DNA of 64,000 nt, from NCBI RefSeq assembly GCF_003669015.1, contig NZ_CP033069.1:2366501-2430500 (forward strand), read 5' to 3'. The translations under genes were made by a program, and so were the position numbers. The notes below the pieces were generated by a model. That model made no database searches. It was not told where the DNA came from and saw only the letters and a program-made list of their open reading frames with translations. Source of the stretch: Acidovorax sp. 1608163. GTDB taxonomy: Bacteria > Pseudomonadota > Gammaproteobacteria > Burkholderiales > Burkholderiaceae_C. This document shows, piece by piece, positions 2,465-14,060 of this stretch (its first letter is position 1; every line of letters begins with the position of its first letter).

Positions 2465-2505
2465 GCTCTAGCGCTTATTGGCAATCGCTGAAAACTATCA
2501 AAACA
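2465..2505. repeat. decayed short dispersed palindrome
   Basis: Contains ctctagcgcttatt, then a degenerate right arm and ctatcaaaac. It matches the repeat seen in better form at 7306, 24152, 44261, 49346 and 50211. It lies just after the epimerase gene. The remaining sequence to 2665 holds no gene I can support. Confidence 0.6.
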
Positions 2506-2665
2506 GTGGCAATGGACTCTCAGGTTCACCCCGACCTATGCCGAGTTCGGTGCTGCAGCAACCAGCGCCCGTGAGCCACACGCAGGCCTATGAGTTCCCC
2601 AGTTGAGCTATTTACATTCAACCGATAACGGCCAATTTGACGGAATTTTCACATCCAAAAATAGA

Positions 2666-3028
2666 TTATATCGACTGCGCTGCGATGAAATCATCTTCAG
2701 GATCATCTACCAATACACATAATCCAGACGCCAGATCTGCCTCGAATTTTTTATGCTTACCCTCCTTGAGATCACCATTATAAGAGACCCTGACTACTTC
2801 ATTTCGCCCAATTTTTCTCCCAGGTCGTTTCTCAGTCAACAGCTTTGCAGGCCGAGCCAGGGATAAAAGCGCAGTTCGAAGCTGAATAAGGAAGTCACTA
2901 GGGAACCATAGAAGACTAAACTCTTTAGCTGAGTCAAGTCGCTTGCGAAGATCCCTCACAGCTTCCGCAGCGCGGGTCGCTTCACCTCTAAGCAGCCTTT
3001 TTCGAACATCTAAATATTCGCGCAACAA
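2666..3028 (-). CDS. small ORF, probable C-terminal extension of the upstream ATPase
   Basis: A 120-residue frame without a recognised domain. It has helical, charged sequence at first (LREYLDVRKRLL, AEAVRDLRKRLDSAKE) and later KRPGRKIGRNEVVRVSYNG. The only start in frame is TTG at 3028, with no ribosome-binding site. The frame is open upstream through ATA ACT GCA ... directly into a G8 run (3059-3066) at the very end of the ATPase gene. One extra G, or a -1 slip on the G run, would join the two into a protein of about 877 residues. I therefore read this as the ATPase C-terminus, separated by sequencing error or by real slippage, rather than as an independent gene. Base composition is AT-rich like its partner. 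Confidence 0.5.
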   Translation of the reverse strand: MLREYLDVRKRLLRGEATRAAEAVRDLRKRLDSAKEFSLLWFPSDFLIQLRTALLSLARPAKLLTEKRPGRKIGRNEVVRVSYNGDLKEGKHKKFEADLASGLCVLVDDPEDDFIAAQSI

Positions 3029-3054
3029 ACTGATTGATTCAGTTTCAGTTGCAG

Positions 3055-5298
3055 TTATCCCCCCCCTTGTGCAACTGTCATATTGATCGCACGATAGGCT
3101 TTCTCCAAAATTTGATCCGAAAGTCTATTTTTACTTTCCGCTATAATTAAATAAAGGGGTCGAAAATCAGCTAACCCGAGTTCTTGAAGCGACGCACTCT
3201 CAAAGGTCTGAATATAGCGATCACTATATTTAATCAAACTCTCTTCGCCTCCAATAAATAGCACAAGACCGAGAAGTTCTCGCTTCTGATCGACTGGCAG
3301 TGAGTCATCACCGGCCTCAAGGCCTAAACCAAATAGCTTCGCGGCTATCTGTCGACGGCGTGGGAGTTTGAGTCCTAATGAACATATTGAGGTGATCGCC
3401 TCGTTGAGCACCTCTCCTTTTGGCGCGACTTTAAAAACATGCTCAGCGACTCGAAGTGCATCTTCGTGACGATCCGCTTCGATTAGCTTTGTTATTAGCA
3501 CAAGGAACTGGTCTAAACTCAAATCTTCATGGGGGCGCTGAGCTCCACTCGAATTGATATTCGCGCTCATGGCTAGCGCGTGGGCGCGATCAAGAGCATT
3601 GCCATTTGCTCCAACAACAATATATTGAAGCAAGCGAATAGACAAATCTGCCTTCAATCTCTCCTCTTGAAGCTCGATCTCAAGTTCAAGTACCTGTGCG
3701 GCAGCAGCGACATTACCCTCCAGTTTGTAGGCTTGGGCCAAAATTACTGCAGCAAATCCTTTTAACTCGCTACGTTCAAGAGTAATCGGTTCACCACTAA
3801 TGTTTTCTACTGAATTAGCTATCTCCAAACAAATATTTTTCACCCGCTCTGTTTGAGGCGTTTTATCTTGCGTGAGGCACGACGCCAAATAGGCCCGAGC
3901 TTCAACCCTCAGCCAAGGCATGTCGATCTCGTTCCCGCTGAGATTCGCAATATATTCAAAAAACACTACAGCACTTTGATATCGGAATAGCTGCCATGAG
4001 GCAACACCGGTATAAAACACCCGCATTAAAGCTAGGTCAGACCTCAACTCGCCAGAATCCTCCTTCAGATAGTTCAACGCTTCTTCGTAATTACCCATCC
4101 AGAAATAGCAATACCCGGCATAGTACGAGGCCAAACTACGACCAACAGCATCCTCGGCGCTCGTTACGAAAACAAGTAGACCCGGCAGTGCAGCGGCGTA
4201 GTTTTTGGATTCAGCCCTCTCAACCCAACTTGTCAAAGGGTCAGTCTGCTCAGTTACGGATTTCAACAAGTATGATTCCGACAACGCCGTTTCAAGAATT
4301 TGATTCTTGAAACTAATGGTTTTTTCTTTAATATCGTAGCTGGTGATGCCAGCCAGGTAAAGCTTGGTGCGCGTGCTTTGAGGGATCGTAATAGACTTTT
4401 TATAATGAATTGCAATTAAAGAATCTCGAATCTCCCTACTTTCAAGCACCAATTTTTTTATGTGATCAATCGGGGGAACATCCACCTCCCCAAAATAGAG
4501 TTTTTTGACCGCAGAATCAACGTCGTCGATAGTTAGAGTTTGATCGCGATCTTCCAGCTCGGAGCATACATCCCAAGTCATACGCGGATGACCACTTGTC
4601 CAATAGTACACGCGCGAGATAATTTCTTCCGTCATTGGAATACTTGCTCGCTGAACCAGATAACTGACTTCAGCAAGGCTAAAGTCGTTCAGATATATTT
4701 TTTCACCAATATTGAAAGGTGAAACATCTTTATTCTTTATAATATCGGCTGGTTCAGCAACACCTGAAAGCAAATACGTTAAACGATTAAATTCTGGAAA
4801 GTTTAGTCTTCCGCCAAAATATACACTTCTAATAAATGTAAAAACTTGATCAGAATATGCAGATCCAGCAATTGCGTCAATTTCATCAAGGCAGACGATC
4901 AGTCGGCCTGGAATTGATCGCAGTAAGATACGTAACTCACTTTCGTGCTCCCTGTGCGCCAGTCGAGTATTACCATGCCGTCCAATCGCAATATCATTTA
5001 GCGTTTCGGCACTTTGCGGAAACACCTCAGTCGCAACGTCAATAATATTGCGGAAAAATTCTCTAATGTCGGGAATAGGATTCGAGACATCAATGTACAA
5101 AAATACATCTGACTCAGGTTTTAGAAATTGCTTGGCATGCAACAGAAGATTGGTTTTACCCATCTGCCTTGCTACTAACACATATCCGGGCCGCCCCATT
5201 TCTTCGAGAATTTTTGCAACTTGTCGGTCCGCGTCACGCTCGACATACAGGTGCTCAGGTATAACTGTAAGCGAACGTAGAAATTTTGATTTACTCAT
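3055..5298 (-). CDS. AAA-like P-loop ATPase with helical-repeat C-terminus
   Basis: A 747-residue ATPase. Walker A is ARQMGKTNLL (about residues 42-50) and Walker B is LIVCLDEIDAI (about 135-140); the ARQMGKT form is typical of the AAA-like PF14516 group. A winged-helix-like part (SYLVQRASIPMTEEIISRVY) follows. The C-terminal half, with AGYCYFWMGNYEEALNYL and AQAYKLEGNVAAAAQVLELE, is TPR-like. The frame is open to 5319, but ATG 5298 sits in ATGAGTAA, overlapping the stop of the upstream gene by 8 bp, with GGAAATGGAA before it. This points to translational coupling with the hydrolase-NTPase gene. The gene is AT-rich against its surroundings, which suggests transfer. A role in phage defence is an inference from architecture and context only. 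The 3' end is a G8 run, discussed with the downstream ORF. Confidence 0.78.
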   Translation of the reverse strand: MSKSKFLRSLTVIPEHLYVERDADRQVAKILEEMGRPGYVLVARQMGKTNLLLHAKQFLKPESDVFLYIDVSNPIPDIREFFRNIIDVATEVFPQSAETLNDIAIGRHGNTRLAHREHESELRILLRSIPGRLIVCLDEIDAIAGSAYSDQVFTFIRSVYFGGRLNFPEFNRLTYLLSGVAEPADIIKNKDVSPFNIGEKIYLNDFSLAEVSYLVQRASIPMTEEIISRVYYWTSGHPRMTWDVCSELEDRDQTLTIDDVDSAVKKLYFGEVDVPPIDHIKKLVLESREIRDSLIAIHYKKSITIPQSTRTKLYLAGITSYDIKEKTISFKNQILETALSESYLLKSVTEQTDPLTSWVERAESKNYAAALPGLLVFVTSAEDAVGRSLASYYAGYCYFWMGNYEEALNYLKEDSGELRSDLALMRVFYTGVASWQLFRYQSAVVFFEYIANLSGNEIDMPWLRVEARAYLASCLTQDKTPQTERVKNICLEIANSVENISGEPITLERSELKGFAAVILAQAYKLEGNVAAAAQVLELEIELQEERLKADLSIRLLQYIVVGANGNALDRAHALAMSANINSSGAQRPHEDLSLDQFLVLITKLIEADRHEDALRVAEHVFKVAPKGEVLNEAITSICSLGLKLPRRRQIAAKLFGLGLEAGDDSLPVDQKRELLGLVLFIGGEESLIKYSDRYIQTFESASLQELGLADFRPLYLIIAESKNRLSDQILEKAYRAINMTVAQGGG
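3059..3066 (-). other. G8 homopolymer at gene end, possible slippage site
   Basis: Eight consecutive C on the plus strand (G on the coding strand) sit two codons before the ATPase stop (codons CAA GGG GGG GGA TAA). A G9 allele or a -1 slip would replace GGA TAA with GGG ATA ACT and continue into the 120-residue frame. Confidence 0.6.
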
Positions 5299-7000
5299 TT
5301 CCATTTCCATAGAATTCAAATTCGCTTAGTGCAGTTTCAACATTATCTGGAGAGGCTCCACCTAGCGCAACCACTCTACGGAAAAAGTTTTTTATTTTTC
5401 GCGGAGTGCAGAGATCGAGTTCCACAAGTCGTATTCGGAGATCGTCCGCCCCAAGTTGCAGTCCCACTGATTCCTCAATGAGTTTTATGAGACTCATTAA
5501 TTCGTCTTTTGACCACATATCTAACGCATTAACCTGCAAGCTTTCTTGGACTTTATCCGTCATCAAATCATTTGAAGGGGTGTTTATGGAGCAAATAACA
5601 AATCTAATATTCGCTTTTGAGGCGGAATTAACTTTCACTATGAGATTTAAAAGAAATTCCGTTAGCCTAACGCCACTCGAATTATTCAAAGGAATTTCGT
5701 CAAGCAGAATTCTCACTGCAGATTGGGAACTGTGGGCTTTCACGAGAACGCCAACTGCGTCTGCAAAGTTGTAGGAAGGGCGATCTAGGTCGGTTAATCC
5801 AAGTGACCGATACGTCGAGACGATAGCCTCATAACAAGCTTCGATGTTTCCCGCCTCATATGCCAGTCCGAGATCAATTTGGGTAGCAACAGGCTTGCCA
5901 AGAGAAAATACTGCATATCTCGCCAATGATGTTTTACCACAGCCAGATGGGCCGCAAATCCACACGCTTGAATATTTTATTATTTCTTCGAATTCAAGAT
6001 CTGCATCTCTAAGCAAATAATATGGCTTGCATTCTATTTTGTAAATATCAAACAAGGCGTTAGCATCTTGTTTGACTTCCTCAGTCAACACGTTCGCCAT
6101 CTGTTGCTTCGATTTTTCAATACATGCTTTTTCCAAAATTGGCTTAAAGCTTTGATCAAAAAACCTCAGGAAATTTACATAGATAGCGGAATTTACACTT
6201 CCGGGTTTTGCGATGTTGAAGTGATCCGATCCAGGAATTATTGTGGCAACCCCAAAGTACCGTGAGGAAGATGACTTCTCGACGATCGGCTTGGTGCGTA
6301 TAGGCAGCCACTCCGCCCATACAGGTCCATAGTTCTCGCTAACCTCTGCCCCAACCAGCCGCGGAATCGTCTTCTTATGAAGAAGATCTCGGAATCTTCC
6401 ATCCAGATCATTAAGAACCTCACTGCCAGAATTTAATTGCCGCACGACTTTGTTTTTATATAGTCGACCGACAATATCGAACGTTTTGGCGTATTCAGAC
6501 CCTCCAGATGGAGAAGCCACTAAGAATAGGCCTATTGCTTTTTCGATCAGCAAGTGCTTTTGTTGCTCTACAAGTCGTCGCACTAAGATGCCACCAAGAC
6601 TGTGACATACAAATATAATATTTGTAAAATTTAATACAGGCCGGTACTCCGATGATGGTTCAAAGCTAAAGCGGTTGAATAACTCGTTGGTACTTTGCTC
6701 GATGTCATACTCTCCGGAATTGGCGATGGTATGATATTCTGAAACAAATACTGCACACTCCTTGAATTTGGGATCGGCTTTAATAAGATCTGGCCATGAA
6801 TGCCCCGACTTTCCTTTCCAACAATCGGAGGCGTTTGAGAGAAAGCCATGAACGAAAACCACGGCAATTTCAGCGGAATCAGGGTATTGGATCCACCCAT
6901 TAGAGAAAATTGGTGATTTGGGCTTATCCGCTCCTCCGACGTGTTCAACAGGCTTCACCGGTGTCAATTTATTCTCCTTGTAGCTGATCTTGATCCGCAT
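5291..7000 (-). CDS. alpha/beta-hydrolase fused to P-loop NTPase
   Basis: A 569-residue two-domain protein. The N-terminal part is an alpha/beta-hydrolase of the PGAP1/lipase-like type: VVFVHGFLSN (oxyanion region, H near 51), the nucleophile elbow CHSLGG (Ser near 133) and GSDHFNIAKP (probable catalytic His near 258). The second half is an NTPase with Walker A CGPSGCGKTSLA (about 347-356) and an acidic strand VRILLDEIP as Walker B candidate. This layout recalls STAND-type effector proteins in which a hydrolase is switched by an NTPase. The frame is open to 7141; MRIKISYKE at 7000 looks like the natural start, but no start has a good ribosome-binding site (7069 is the alternative). It overlaps the ATPase gene by 8 bp. 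The AT-rich composition suggests horizontal origin. Substrate and trigger are unknown. Confidence 0.75.
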   Translation of the reverse strand: MRIKISYKENKLTPVKPVEHVGGADKPKSPIFSNGWIQYPDSAEIAVVFVHGFLSNASDCWKGKSGHSWPDLIKADPKFKECAVFVSEYHTIANSGEYDIEQSTNELFNRFSFEPSSEYRPVLNFTNIIFVCHSLGGILVRRLVEQQKHLLIEKAIGLFLVASPSGGSEYAKTFDIVGRLYKNKVVRQLNSGSEVLNDLDGRFRDLLHKKTIPRLVGAEVSENYGPVWAEWLPIRTKPIVEKSSSSRYFGVATIIPGSDHFNIAKPGSVNSAIYVNFLRFFDQSFKPILEKACIEKSKQQMANVLTEEVKQDANALFDIYKIECKPYYLLRDADLEFEEIIKYSSVWICGPSGCGKTSLARYAVFSLGKPVATQIDLGLAYEAGNIEACYEAIVSTYRSLGLTDLDRPSYNFADAVGVLVKAHSSQSAVRILLDEIPLNNSSGVRLTEFLLNLIVKVNSASKANIRFVICSINTPSNDLMTDKVQESLQVNALDMWSKDELMSLIKLIEESVGLQLGADDLRIRLVELDLCTPRKIKNFFRRVVALGGASPDNVETALSEFEFYGNGNE

Positions 7001-7244
7001 TGGAATTACGGGGTGTGCATTTAAAGCATGACGATGAACTGGCTGGCACTGTGAAGCGTTTATGCCCATCAAGCCGACTTGGTAGAAGATGAGCATTCCA
7101 TGCCGAAAGAACAAATGTATCCGGCAACGTGGCAGGGACAACCTACGGCAAATTCTCCCGAAAAATTACCTGACTCCGCGTCGTCTCCACCCCACTCGTC
7201 GGCTCCCGCCCATCCCTCAGATTGGCAAAAATCCGCACACGCAC

Positions 7245-7305: not shown

Positions 7306-7347
7306 GCTCTAGCGCTTATTCATCAAGCGCTGGCAGCTATCAAAATT
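7306..7347. repeat. short dispersed palindrome
   Basis: The sequence gctctagcgcttatt, catc, aagcgctggcagctatcaaa forms the stem AGCGCTT/AAGCGCT. It is a copy of the family found six times between genes in this window. It lies at the right border of the AT-rich accessory block, before the next minus-strand gene. Confidence 0.7.
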
Positions 7348-7383: not shown

Positions 7384-8532
7384 TCAACGCTGCAACAACC
7401 GCCGCCGCTCCAGCCACACTTTGCGCACAAACGGGTCGGCCACGGTGTAGATGCCGTGGCCTGGGCGGGCGATCAGGTTGGCGCTGATCATCTTTTCGGC
7501 CAGCTTTTGCACCTGCGATGTGGGCACCTTGCCCCCCGTGCGGGCGGTGTAGCTGGCCATGGCTTCTTCGCCAAACAGGCCCGATACACCGGTCTCGCTG
7601 CCCTGCGCGATGAAGTCAAACACCGCCTGGCCCAGCTCTCCAAACTCTTCAATGGCGCGCAGCTCTACATCGGCAGCGGCTGATGCCAGCGTGGCGCAGA
7701 TGATGGGAAACGCCTGGTCTGCCGGGGCCTGGGCGCTTTGCAGTTGCACCAGGGCCTTGAGCATTTCTTCGGGCCGGTGGCCAAGGGACTGAAAGCCCGC
7801 CCAAGCCATATCAGCACTGGGCAGCACCACGCCTGGGCTGCTGGCAATGCGTTGCAGTTGCCATTGCACAAAGTCTTGCCCCAGTGGTTCGTAGGCCGTG
7901 GTCAGCGCGCCGGTAAAGGGCTGCGAGTGGCGCGTGGCCATGTCGGTGATGAGCGACTTGTGCGAGCCCGTGCCCAAAAATAAGAAGTACCCCGGCGTGC
8001 CGGGCTGGGCGTTGACGGCATCGCGGGCGGCCTTGAGGGCGTGCAGCAGGCTGGTGCCGTCTTCGGTGCCCAGGGCCTGCTGCACTTCGTCCACGATCAG
8101 CACCACATCCACCTTGGCTTTGGCCACCAGCTCTGAAAACGCCTGAGCCAGCGTGGTGCCACCCGGCGTGCCCAAATGCTCCACCTGAAAACCCAGCGTG
8201 ATACCCGCCGCGCCCAGGTTCAGCCCCTTGAAGCGCTGCAGCAAGCCTGAGCCTGGGGTTTGCATTTGCAGCAGCGTGGCGCGCACGGCATCGAGCACCA
8301 GCACGGCTGGGCTTTTGCTGCGGTCAGCCCACAGGTCCACATAGATCACCAGCGCACCCCGCGCCTCCAGCGCAGGCACCAGGTCCTGGCGCAAAAAAGT
8401 GGTTTTGCCCACGCGGCGTATGCCCGACAGCAGCACGCCCGAGCGCACGTTCATGTGCAGGGGCGATGGCTGCAGCAGCTGCTGGGCCATTTGCTCTGCA
8501 TAGGCGGTGCGGTGGAATACGTCGGGGGCCAT
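7384..8532 (-). CDS. AAA-family ATP-binding protein
   Basis: A 382-residue cytosolic ATPase of the AAA_16/archaeal-ATPase-like group. Walker A is SGIRRVGKTTFLRQ (about residues 35-48) and Walker B is VVLIVDEVQQAL; LFLGTGSH follows as a sensor-1-like strand. A C-terminal helical, probably winged-helix part (SGLFGEEAMASYTARTGG) completes it. The frame extends to a GTG at 8544, but GGAG lies inside that extension at the right distance from ATG 8532, so MAPDVF is the start. Unlike the block to its left, the gene is GC-rich and looks resident. It resembles ATPases that read or load DNA ends or act with toxin-like partners, but no partner is visible and the function is unknown. Confidence 0.75.
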   Translation of the reverse strand: MAPDVFHRTAYAEQMAQQLLQPSPLHMNVRSGVLLSGIRRVGKTTFLRQDLVPALEARGALVIYVDLWADRSKSPAVLVLDAVRATLLQMQTPGSGLLQRFKGLNLGAAGITLGFQVEHLGTPGGTTLAQAFSELVAKAKVDVVLIVDEVQQALGTEDGTSLLHALKAARDAVNAQPGTPGYFLFLGTGSHKSLITDMATRHSQPFTGALTTAYEPLGQDFVQWQLQRIASSPGVVLPSADMAWAGFQSLGHRPEEMLKALVQLQSAQAPADQAFPIICATLASAAADVELRAIEEFGELGQAVFDFIAQGSETGVSGLFGEEAMASYTARTGGKVPTSQVQKLAEKMISANLIARPGHGIYTVADPFVRKVWLERRRLLQR

Positions 8533-8640
8533 GGTTATCTCCACTTATCTGAATATGGTTAATTATCTGATTTTGATAAAAAAAGATAAAGGCCTGCAAA
8601 ACACGCTAAGGCCACATCTGGGTGCCCCACCCTGCCCACA

Positions 8641-10257: not shown

Positions 10258-13200
10258 CTACCCCAGATAGGGGCGTTCAGTGACCAGCAAGGCCCGCTTG
10301 GCAAATTCGCGCCACGCAGGCGGCGCCTGCTTGCCCAGCACGATCAAGCCGACGACGTAGGCTTGCGCGCGACGTTGTGGCGGCTCGTTTTGCAATGCCT
10401 TCTCGGCCTGCGCGGCATTGCGCGTCGTCTGCATGATGGCAACGAATTTGCGCAGCGCAAGGGACTCGTCACTGCTGCTGGCATTGAGCTTGGCCAGCAA
10501 CGGTTCGACATTGCGCTGGTGGCGCAATGCCAACCCCAAGGCGCTCCAATACACGTCGCCGTCGATGCCTTGGTCGGGCAACAGCTTCAAGCTGCGTTCG
10601 ATGATTTCGGCGGGAGCACCATCCGATGCCGCAATCAGTCGCAAGGCACGCTCGCCACCCTTGTTGGCGTTCCAGCGCCTGGCGGCAGACTCCACCTGAC
10701 CCCGATGGAGATCAAAATAGATTTTTGCTTGCGCGCTGTCGGAGATGTCTTTGCCTGTTTCAAGGCTGTAATTGCTGCGCAAAGTCTCTGACTTGGGCAA
10801 CAAGTCTTGCACGTTGGCGTCTACGCCCTGCATCAGGCGCCGCATGCGGGCCATGTCAACCACGACAAACTCTCTCAATGCAGGGTGATTGCTGGCCACA
10901 CCATAGGCGGTGTATGCATTCCCCCATCGGCCCGCCACAGCGGCATCGTAAGCACTGACCAAGGCGAACCAAGGGTTGTTCGGGTGCTTTTTGTACCCTG
11001 CTGCAAATGCGGCATCGCGCGCTGCGCCCTCTTCCATGCAGCGCACAGCCAGGTACTGCATGTCGGGGTTGCTCGCATTCTGGGCGAACAGTGTTGCCTG
11101 CCGTTTGCACACCACCTGCCGGTTAGGGGCCACATCTTGCTCGATGCGCAGTGTCATGACATCCAGCGGGTTGATCTCCAATCGGCGCTGCAAGACCGTC
11201 GGGTACTCCGGCAAATCAGATGCCTGCATCAACCAATCCCTCAGACTTACAGAGTCAGCCGCGTCCCACTGGGCGTGTGCAAGCACTACGGCCTTTCGGG
11301 TGCTGTCTTTTTCAGCCATCCCCAGATTGGATCGCCATGAGTTGGCCTGCGCCGCGCTGAGCACCGACCGCGTGCCGCCGCCACCTTTGGTTTGAATGTT
11401 GGCTGGCGGCTCAGACAGCACATGATCAACCGATGTCGAAACCCACCGACTGCCCGCAACTTCGTGCGGAGGCGATCCATTCTGGTTTCCGTACCCCGCG
11501 CTCCACTCCACCAAGGGGCTGGCCTGGGCGATGTTGTAGATGTACTGGCCGCTGATGACATCCGGCGTTTCCTCAAACGACTCGATCTGTTGGCCTTCCA
11601 CCGTGCGGGCGCCCAGCCGCAACGGCTTGTCGAGGTCCACACCCATGCTCTGCGTTGCGCCCGGCGCGAGGGTGATGGTTTTGCTCCCTACTTGAGAAAC
11701 GACCTTGCGATCCAATCCGTTGTGCACCCACAGCGTGGCGGTGCCCACGGTGGCGCCCATGCCCAAAATGCTTCCGATAATGCCCCGGCCACAACCAATC
11801 GGGCGGCGCCTGGGCCCCACCCATCCGCCACTTGAAAGCGTGACCACCAATCGAGCTTTTTTTGCAGAGGCCGCTCTTGACCTGTTGTGAAGCTGCTGTA
11901 GCTTTTGGGCACATTGGGCGCCGCTGGTGCGTCCCCCATCGCATCCGCATTGCCTGCGGTTTCTCGCAAGCGGCGCTCGGTCTCCAGCAACTGGTCCAGC
12001 GCAGTGCGACGCAGTTGTCCCAGCGCGCCAGCAACGGGCCGCATCCAGCTGTCGATCACATTCAACCAATCGCCAATGTTGCCCAACCCCGGCGCCACCA
12101 GATTGAACTCGCCCAGCAGTGCGCTCCAACTGGCCGATCCCAAGCGCTGCAGCGTCGCGTCGTCCAACGTCAATGATCCGCGCGCAGCATTCACCTCTTG
12201 CAGCAGGCGGTACAGTTCCATCGCGTGGCTTTGCAAGCGGTTGCGCTCGTCGTCATTGACCTTGCGCTTGGCAGTCACCATAGACACCACATTGGCCAGA
12301 GCGCTGTGTGCGTCGGCGATGTTGGCCTGCATGTGCTCGGCGTAGTGAACGAGCGACAGCAAGCCCAGCCAGTAACTCTCCCACCCCGAACGTGCTGTGC
12401 GTGCGAGTGCCAGGGCCGTCGAACGGCAGAGGCGGTCGTGCGCGACGATGCGCGTGTCCAGCGCTTTCATCTCGCTTTCGACCGTCTGCAAGGCGGCCCC
12501 CACGTCTTTGCGCTTCAGCGTGCGACCGCGAAAACGAATGACCCCATCAACGGCCTTGGCCACGCCGTCTTGAATGGCCAGCAGTTGGCTCTTCTCCTCA
12601 CCAAGCCGGTCCATTTGCTGCAGATCGGCACGCAGCGAATCGGGGTACAGCTCTGTGCCTGTCGTTGTTGCATCGGGCGCGCCAGCTTCTGCGGCATAGA
12701 GTTCGCTCGCTACATGTGCGTACCGGGTCACGGGGCGCGCCAGATAGCGGCCCTTGTAAACGCGCTGATAAGACTCCCTGCCGTATTCCGCATCCAGTGC
12801 CGCAAGCGACTCCTCTCGACTCGCCACGGGCAGGGGCGGGTCGATGGCCGCAACCATTTCAGCGCAGGTCTTGAGCTTGAGCGATTCGGCATCCCTGAAC
12901 AATGTCCATGCCGAGCAGGCCTCCAGCGGCACTGGCAGGTAAATCTGCTTGGCGTTGAATTCCCGTTCGTGATTGAGCGGATGGCTCGCCCACATGCGGG
13001 AGGGTTGCACCATCTGCTGCTGGAAAACGCGGTGCTGGCTGGGGTCACCTTGCGGCTGCGCAGGCTCACCGAAGGTAGGGTCATCCAGAATTTCGCGCAA
13101 TTTGGCGATGATCAGCGACTGGATTTCAAACAAGTCGGCCGTCACGCGCCCGGCGCGCACCTCCGCATTGGCAAACGCGAGCGTTCGGTCCCAGGCCATA

Positions 13201-14060
13201 TCGGCGGACTGGCAGCGGTACAGCGCATGGATGAGTGCATCGCTGCCCGTCAAGCTGACAGACACCTTGTCTGCCTGAAACTCCATCTCGCGAGACAGCG
13301 CGCGTTCTGCCGCCAGAACGAGTTTGAAAAACGTGTCCACCACGGACCGGATCGCCCACACCACGAGCGAAAGAATCCAGCCGACCCAGGCAACGCGAAT
13401 ATCGAAAGACGAAAGACTGCGCAGAAACCCGTCCAGGCTGTCGCGTTTGGCGACCACATGCCCCGCGATTTGCTGAGCGACATACACCCACCGCCCCACC
13501 GCCATGGACCGCTGCGCAAAATGCCCGAATTCATGGGCCAGAACGGCCTTGAATTCAGAGGCGTTCAGCACGTTGACGAGGGGTAACCCAATCTCAAGGT
13601 TCTTTCGAGATGGGAATATCAGGTTCAGCAGCGATAAATCATAAAAAACGGCCGCATTCACCCGTGCGGAAAGAAAGACCTTGCGTGGTCGCGGTGCACG
13701 CGCTTCATCGGCCAAGCGGTACAGAAATGCAAAAAGCTCTGGTTGTTCGTCTTTCGTGATCTCGGTGAGATCAGACATATTGCTGCGTTTGACGAACCAA
13801 ATGGCTTTGAGCATGAACAGCGCGACAAAGCCCGACGCCACCCCGCCCAAGAAAAGCCACAGGGCTTGGTGTGGAGCCTGCAAACTTGCGCGTATCAGCG
13901 CATAGGCCTTCCAGGCAAACCAGCCTGACAGCGAAAAGTAAAAAGCGACAAAACCCAGTAGCGCCAACAGCGCAATCCACGCGTGGCGCTTGTAAGACGA
14001 AGTGGCTTTGATCAATTCCTCTGGGTAAGCCTGCGGCCCAGCTGGATACTTCAGCTCCAT
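10258..14060 (-). pseudogene. M48-type metallopeptidase gene interrupted by a one-base frameshift
   Basis: One gene of about 1267 codons split into two frames. The 5' frame (14060 to about 11785) starts with two membrane helices (about residues 27-48 and 68-88). It then has the zinc motif HEFGH (about 175-179) and the probable third ligand in EMEFQADKVS (about 258), followed by a long helical region. The 3' frame (about 11785 to 10258) continues with GIIGSILGMGATVGTATLW, a third hydrophobic stretch, and then a TPR-like C-terminus. Between them the coding strand reads GTG GCC GGG GCA TTA; one more G would give GTG GCC GGG GGC ATT ATC and restore a single frame. The ribosome-binding site GGGAGGATTAC precedes ATG 14060. 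Both halves look intact, so this is either a recent mutation or a homopolymer error. M48 enzymes of this layout are usually membrane proteases; substrate unknown. Confidence 0.8.
11783..11786 (-). other. frameshift position in M48 gene
   Basis: A run of four C on the plus strand (GGGG in the coding strand) where five would keep frame. Upstream the correct frame reads ADGWGPGAARLVVAG, downstream GIIGSILGMG; the frame must change exactly at this run. Confidence 0.75.

Follow-up and report, generated by a model that had tools for sequence, protein, structure and literature searches.

Paired AAA_35 and hydrolase-NTPase genes of Acidovorax sp. 1608163 as one variant of a candidate two-gene, effector-swapping defence system

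Introduction

What is the role of an AT-rich pair of ATPase genes lying in a chromosomal slot whose cargo differs between members of the genus? The pair was encountered in a stretch of 64,000 nucleotides from Acidovorax sp. 1608163 (contig NZ_CP033069.1, positions 2,366,501 to 2,430,500), hereafter the window, in which positions are counted from the first letter. A first-pass annotation, made from the letters alone, had described two overlapping minus-strand genes, one encoding a lipase-like hydrolase fused to a P-loop NTPase and the other an AAA-like ATPase with TPR-like repeats, and had proposed them as an acquired defence module of the STAND (signal transduction ATPases with numerous domains) kind. 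We consider it likely that the two genes represent a single variant within a STAND-type defence system that is built from two genes and exchanges its effectors. Directly supported are the pairing of the genes, the constancy of both NTPase cores, the swapping of effectors, the STAND-like predicted fold and the defence-gene neighbourhood.

Results and Discussion

Architecture of the gene pair

The two genes and their domains are located as follows.

5291-7096, minus strand: gene 1, the effector protein, an alpha/beta-hydrolase with a C-terminal P-loop NTPase (601 aa; database entry P0121)
6122-6904, minus strand: hydrolase (lipase/phospholipase-like) domain of gene 1, with the nucleophile Ser codon at 6599-6601 and the His codon at 6221-6223
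5303-6070, minus strand: NTPase domain of gene 1 (the partner NTPase), constant across effector types, with Walker A GPSGCGKT (Lys codon 5933-5935) and Walker B LLDEIP
3055-5298, minus strand: gene 2, the sensor candidate, an AAA_35 NTPase carrying a winged helix and TPR-like repeats (747 aa; database entry P0001)
4519-5298, minus strand: AAA_35 NTPase domain of gene 2 (motifs ARQMGKT, CLDEID and GHPRMTWD)
3067-4263, minus strand: TPR-like helical repeats of gene 2, fast-evolving

Both genes are present as first described, the ATG of gene 2 overlapping the stop of gene 1. In gene 1, a P-loop accompanies matches to DUF676, DUF7379 and Abhydrolase_6, all of them weak. In all 26 homologues aligned (rows P0156 and P0177 of alignment A2 being excluded from these counts), the serine of CHSLGG and the histidine of GSDH are unchanged, and the protein shows the Ser-His-acid triad on an alpha/beta-hydrolase fold that is expected of a hydrolase effector. 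The partner NTPase is predicted to adopt a Cdc6/Orc-like fold. The gene starts at an ATG at 7096, with a further in-frame ATG at 7000; our gene 1 queries (5291-7009) began at an internal GTA codon rather than at the start codon, which leaves the domain positions unaffected. The hydrolase query matched 108 proteins, 35 of which, besides its own entry, cover at least 87%; P0122 is 60% identical over 97% of the gene 1 query, and another homologue, P0223, carries a sesB-related name from its source.

Gene 2 matches AAA_35 (PF14516) at E 3.2e-15 and TPR families weakly, which bears out its description as an AAA-like ATPase with repeats. It combines a P-loop NTPase, a GxP-type motif, a winged helix and superhelical repeats, as STAND proteins with repeats do, and its predicted structure resembles Avs3 and CED-4. 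Its homologue P0002 is 46% identical over 97% of the query; with P0122 for gene 1, this shows that the two reading frames did not arise by chance. Within the sensor family (P0001 excluded), mean pairwise identity is 18.6% in the repeats versus 58% in the NTPase. The STAND-type logic first proposed is thus supported by predicted structures and, as described below, by an effector position that four unrelated defence-system domains fill.

Conserved pairing and distribution

Homologues scattered without a conserved partner had initially been named as grounds for abandoning the proposal. A survey of one genome per species returned 68 loci, and exclusion of ten distant AAA_35 loci (L063-L071 and L073) left 58 family loci. 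The partner NTPase lies directly upstream of the sensor in 57 of these, the 58th (L033) beginning at a contig edge, so that the pairing is conserved. A co-directional open reading frame (ORF) stands immediately upstream of the sensor in 55 of the 58, at nominal gaps of -77 to +10; the partner of L017 is in two pieces and that of L018 is cut by the contig, and the partner NTPase profile described below picks up both. With L017, L018 and L033 excluded, the window and 55 further loci form the partner set (n=56) used hereafter. The 55 comprise 37 loci from Bacteroidota, 15 from Pseudomonadota and one each from Chlorobiota, Planctomycetota and Mycoplasmatota, the last being a metagenome-assembled contig of 4.6 kb. 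The Walker A lysine is kept in 56/56 sensors and the Walker A pattern in 55/56 partners, L046 being without the strict pattern. One genome, Hymenobacter lucidus BT178, holds two copies of the system (L051 and L062) with Mrr and PNP effectors, respectively.

The pair is patchily distributed. Among 398 genomes of the phylum, including the window's own, the sensor is matched in four (E <= 1e-60), all of which match the partner as well (E <= 1e-25); the partner search gave one more match, which spans the hydrolase half only. In the 148 genomes of the kin set, the sensor is strongly matched in the window's own genome and in one other, and a further genome shows weak matches to AAA_35 only.

Exchangeable effectors

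From the C-terminal NTPases of the 14 hydrolase-type partners we derived a profile, which matched all 42 other partners (E <= 4.2e-35) and none of 360 control proteins (E <= 10). What precedes this constant NTPase varies. By motif script, with L019, L024, L037 and L054 (to which the script gave no class or two) assigned by eye, the 56 N-termini comprise 26 PNP/nucleosidase-like domains, 14 hydrolases, eight Mrr endonucleases, seven trypsins and one unassigned. Counts by profile at E <= 0.01 are lower (PNP_UDP_1 22, Abhydrolase_6 13, Mrr_cat 7 and Trypsin_2 6 of 56). The unassigned partner, at L036 (6683-8004), is short, its 301 aa holding the NTPase and no recognised effector; a 137-aa ORF lies just upstream, and the locus may represent a further effector type.

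The sensor tree requires at least five changes of effector. The clearest is seen between L051 and L054, from two Hymenobacter species, whose sensors are 62% and partner NTPases 59% identical while their N-termini, Mrr and trypsin, give no meaningful alignment (27% over 159). Several of these domains are known to defence catalogues: the PADLOC "PN-superfamily" effector model, which we take to be of CBASS type, matches 26/56 partners, and further effector matches involve the LmuA, Avs1b and Avs2 models. In six of the seven trypsin loci (L046, L049, L052, L053, L055 and L056), a metallo-beta-lactamase (MBL) gene lies directly upstream. Both MBL proteins scanned by name match the LmuA, RTasMBL and Avs1a models. 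The same order, an MBL gene immediately before the trypsin fusion, was found by ORF order and sequence on the viral contig L150. The window copy is of hydrolase type and has no MBL gene.

These exchanges bear on the most mundane reading of the pair, that of a metabolic unit in which an ordinary lipase is regulated by an accessory ATPase. The predicted hydrolase fold is indeed a common lipase fold, but unrelated effector domains take the place of the hydrolase on the same NTPase and strong sensor matches are confined to 2/148 kin and 4/398 phylum genomes, own included; we regard such a role as highly improbable.

Relation to known systems

The first-pass annotation knew of no named system with exactly this pair. 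In support, the core matches PADLOC 2.0.0 weakly: across 25 sensors the best match was to PDC-S27 (E 0.0025, in 3/25), and among three trypsin-type sensors one matched PDC-S01 (E 2e-4). Avs models matched none of the 25 sensors at E <= 0.1 and none of the three trypsin-type sensors at E <= 0.01, and LmuB matched none of the 25 at E <= 0.1, while AAA_35 matched 25/25. A literature search, covering few subscription journals and not bioRxiv, returned nothing pointing to the gene pair. The claim of novelty nevertheless has to be tempered, since a conceptually close operon has already been published, the nSTAND2 two-gene operon of Kaur et al. (2021, PMC8195603), in which one of two STAND NTPases is eroded and fused mostly to GT4 or HEPN effectors.

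Three comparisons are instructive. Firstly, AVAST likewise joins a STAND NTPase to a repeat sensor and an exchangeable N-terminal effector; the predicted sensor fold is near that of Avs3 and, in the trypsin type, the MBL gene matches Avs1a and the trypsin part Avs1b/Avs2. AVAST proteins, which sense terminase or portal, hold effector, NTPase and repeats in one polypeptide, whereas here the effector sits on a second NTPase gene; such a separate upstream gene was found in the window and in the 57 of 58 loci that allowed assessment (that of L036 being without a recognised effector domain). The sensors are also shorter, at about 860 aa versus the 1498-1924 positions of the Avs models listed. The separate effector gene and the missing Avs matches of the sensors scanned led us to reject membership. 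Secondly, Lamassu draws on a common effector pool, its LmuA models matching MBL, trypsin and Mrr-type proteins. Its LmuB is SMC-like, unlike the AAA_35-TPR core here, and with AAA_35 in the second gene and no LmuB match in any of the 25 sensors scanned, membership was again rejected.

Thirdly, the nSTAND2 operon, as far as its accessible description goes, is the closest published analogue and yet different. Both arrangements have two adjacent genes for STAND-type NTPases with a variable effector on one. However, one NTPase is eroded and GT4 or HEPN effectors prevail there, whereas here both P-loops are kept, the effectors are PNP, hydrolase, Mrr or trypsin, and the NTPase families are AAA_35 and AAA_22-like. 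PF20702 (nSTAND2) matches 4/25 sensor homologues, at best with 4.1e-5, and does not match P0001 at E <= 0.1; for the partners, the 25 families listed of 42 do not include nSTAND2. With an AAA_35 core, few PF20702 matches among the sensors and both P-loops retained, we rejected this membership too. That the pair might still be a variant of one of these three systems which escapes current profiles is suggested by the two-NTPase layout, by those four PF20702 matches and by effector domains that match LmuA, Avs1a/Avs1b/Avs2 and CBASS effector models. Given AAA_35 in all 25 sensors scanned, their lack of Avs and LmuB matches, and Walker A motifs retained in both proteins against one eroded in the nSTAND2 operon, we judge this improbable.

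The MBL-trypsin arrangement has a published parallel in the nuclease-protease pairs that Tuck et al. (2025, Science, PMC12799240) reported in Hachiman, AVAST, Lamassu and DRT, where an MBL gene likewise lies directly upstream of a trypsin fused to a core enzyme. Here the trypsin is fused to the partner NTPase; that paper names AVAST, Lamassu, Hachiman, DRT and canu and, in its accessible portion, makes no mention of an AAA_35/partner-NTPase core.

Defence neighbourhood and mobility

Enrichment beside known defence genes had been named as a finding that would support the proposal. For 23 loci whose contigs measure 250 kb or more, proteins encoded within 3 kb on each side were compared with those of regions 100 kb away. 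After removal of the partner fragments of L017 and L036, which reduced the neighbour set from 111 to 109, the neighbours matched 36 PADLOC families at E <= 1e-15 and the 114 control proteins nine, as counted per family and not per protein. The matches listed (25 of the 36 families) include type I restriction endonuclease, SoFic, AriA, PtuA and GajA. Three members of the neighbour set match the LmuA, RTasMBL and Avs1a models too.

In a scan of viral contigs, two loci were found on phage-like contigs. L149 is of hydrolase type and is accompanied by genes for integrase, repressor, primase and terminase; in L150, MBL, trypsin and sensor adjoin an integrase. These prophage-like settings would also suit a conflict module aimed at other targets (plasmids, rival toxins or stress-triggered cell death) or a stabiliser of mobile elements. 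The effector pool and the MBL-trypsin arrangement are, against this, those of anti-phage systems, and we hold such a purpose to be unlikely.

Cassette and insertion slot

The AT-richness and the acquired character first assigned to the block both held. GC content is 0.42-0.46 across 2501-7000 and about 0.56-0.68 in the flanks, and similarity to the nearest relative stops at 2512 on the left and resumes at 7142 on the right.

2513-7141, no strand: AT-rich acquired cassette of ~4.6 kb, delimited by the GC profile and the ends of similarity to the nearest relative
7142-7238, no strand: right edge of the slot, a remnant of 97 bp with a match to the 3' end of a lacI-type regulator gene

In place of the extent originally given, 2666-7000, the cassette runs from 2513 to 7141, gene 1 starts at 7096, and the ORF at 2666-3028 is the tail of gene 2. 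The slot that holds the cassette is variable in content and is bounded by an epimerase gene and the lacI-type remnant. Its right border is sharp at 7142, where the adjoining 97-bp stretch is retained in relatives; this 97-bp right edge is present in seven of ten slots fetched from same-genus genomes, the exceptions being L119, L120 and L121. In one genome (G001) this slot contains the gene pair itself as a divergent copy, 28% and 38% identical and in the opposite orientation. In a cargo scan that excluded L122 and L124, four slots held defence-like cargo of other kinds. L125 has a D12 methylase and DndB, L116 has GNAT-EVE and HNH genes, and L123 has a Fic protein; the 787-aa protein of L118 is AT-rich and weakly matches a nucleoside deoxyribosyltransferase (E 0.0025).

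An exact 14-base sequence flanks the cassette on the same strand at 2466-2479 and 7307-7320. With 14 copies genome-wide, it is a dispersed repeat; for the window alone, the expectation is ~0.01 matches at up to one mismatch. An ATPase_2 gene at 7384-8544 was considered as a component of the system and rejected, because it is GC-rich and adjoins an aspartokinase-like gene that is also its neighbour in G033 and G035, both outside the three genomes with sensor matches.

The frame break in the window copy

The 3' end of gene 2 differs from that of its relatives.

3059-3066, no strand: run of eight G (minus strand), site of the gene 2 frame change
2666-3028, minus strand: ORF encoding, in a different frame, the conserved C-terminal tail of gene 2 homologues

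The 120 homologues listed of 1694 measure 832-896 aa, save the window's own entry and one of 459 aa. By blastp, which gave at least 40 matches, the ORF at 2666-3028 is 52% identical to residues 757-863 of the 864-aa P0002 and 49% to P0003. As the ORF matches the homologues' tail and these run ~110 residues longer, we place a frame change of gene 2 at the eight-G run; a third gene was accordingly rejected. Programmed frameshifting at the run was also considered and is unsupported, because each of the 24 other rows of sensor alignment A1 is annotated as one protein; P0053 and P0065 among these have no tail. The tail itself is conserved (in the ORF and in sensors L006-L062) as about GRNxxVxVxYxxGxxxxxKYKKxExDIxxGxC; a Pfam scan of the ORF gave no match at E <= 1, and the tail bears some likeness to a SEC-C motif minus its cysteines.

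Judged from its sequence, the window copy is probably impaired, since the sensor gene loses its conserved tail at the G run. Opinion can be divided evenly on whether this makes the copy a decaying, uninformative pseudogene pair or the break a sequencing or assembly slip in an intact gene, on the one hand, or neither of these, phase variation being a further candidate, on the other. The position of the change in a G8 run speaks for decay or a slip, as do the five G/C runs of at least 8 within 464 kb of the genome, all of which lie at most 151 nt from a called ORF end. The remainder of both genes is intact, however, with motifs present. The only other run that could be aligned (L171) shows substitutions and unchanged length in two relatives; a second run yielded only short repeat matches. 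Elsewhere in the window, two long ORFs of an M48-peptidase-like gene (10258-14060; family judged by eye) overlap in different frames at about 11.7-12.1 kb, a possible second frame change that would favour decay or a slip as well; a similarity search with this region found no match.

Proposed mechanism and implications

For the STAND-type defence system that we favour, the following course of events may be envisaged. Gene 2 would act as the sensor, its fast-evolving repeats binding an invader-derived trigger, and nucleotide exchange in its NTPase would release autoinhibition. The activated sensor might then draw in the second NTPase, encoded by gene 1, or form a joint assembly with it, so that the N-terminal effectors are brought together and thereby switched on. 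In the window copy, the lipase/phospholipase-like hydrolase would attack the membrane of the host, or some other ester substrate, and halt growth before phage release (abortive infection); in other lineages this part would fall to a PNP-family nucleosidase, to an Mrr nuclease or to a trypsin acting with its metallo-beta-lactamase partner. In this scheme we infer the trigger, complex formation, membrane target and abortive outcome.

Several points weigh against such a system. The family's role in phage defence is a proposal made from sequence, and each of the two NTPases might work on its own instead of in a joint complex. Distances among sensors and among partner NTPases correlate (rho 0.65 over 55 loci, L046 being excluded from the partner tree; 0/1000 permutations as high), but this is partly shared ancestry, which the permutation control leaves in. 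The neighbour excess is supportive, not quantitative, because a single protein can be matched by several families and the trypsin-type MBL gene accounts for three members of the set. The case for mobility is built on few instances, given that 50,697 phage records gave no match and 72,556 plasmid records one at the thresholds used. The window's gene 1 matches PADLOC weakly, at best with E 4e-6, and its sensor gene, as sequenced, is out of frame.

Division of labour between paired NTPases has eukaryotic precedents. Plant sensor/helper NLR pairs split sensing from execution, and fungal hydrolase-NLRs such as sesB use an alpha/beta-hydrolase effector; the family recalls both, in the two-NTPase split and in the hydrolase as effector. 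On balance we lean towards regarding it as a bacterial sensor/executor pair, a prokaryotic counterpart of sensor/helper NLRs, in which an effector-free TPR sensor activates a separate NTPase that accepts at least four unrelated killers, and as a further home of the MBL-trypsin pro-nuclease cassette, found in Pseudomonadota, Bacteroidota and single loci of three other phyla.

If so, a widespread defence family would be added in which sensing and killing are divided over two ATPases, a split that makes effector exchange visible as clean domain swaps (L051/L054). The 2023 PADLOC models miss the core, so that such loci would be noticed at best through their effector domains. The transfer of activation between two NTPases would become open to genetic study, more systems would be known to borrow the nuclease-protease pair, and a lipid-hydrolysing branch would be suggested.
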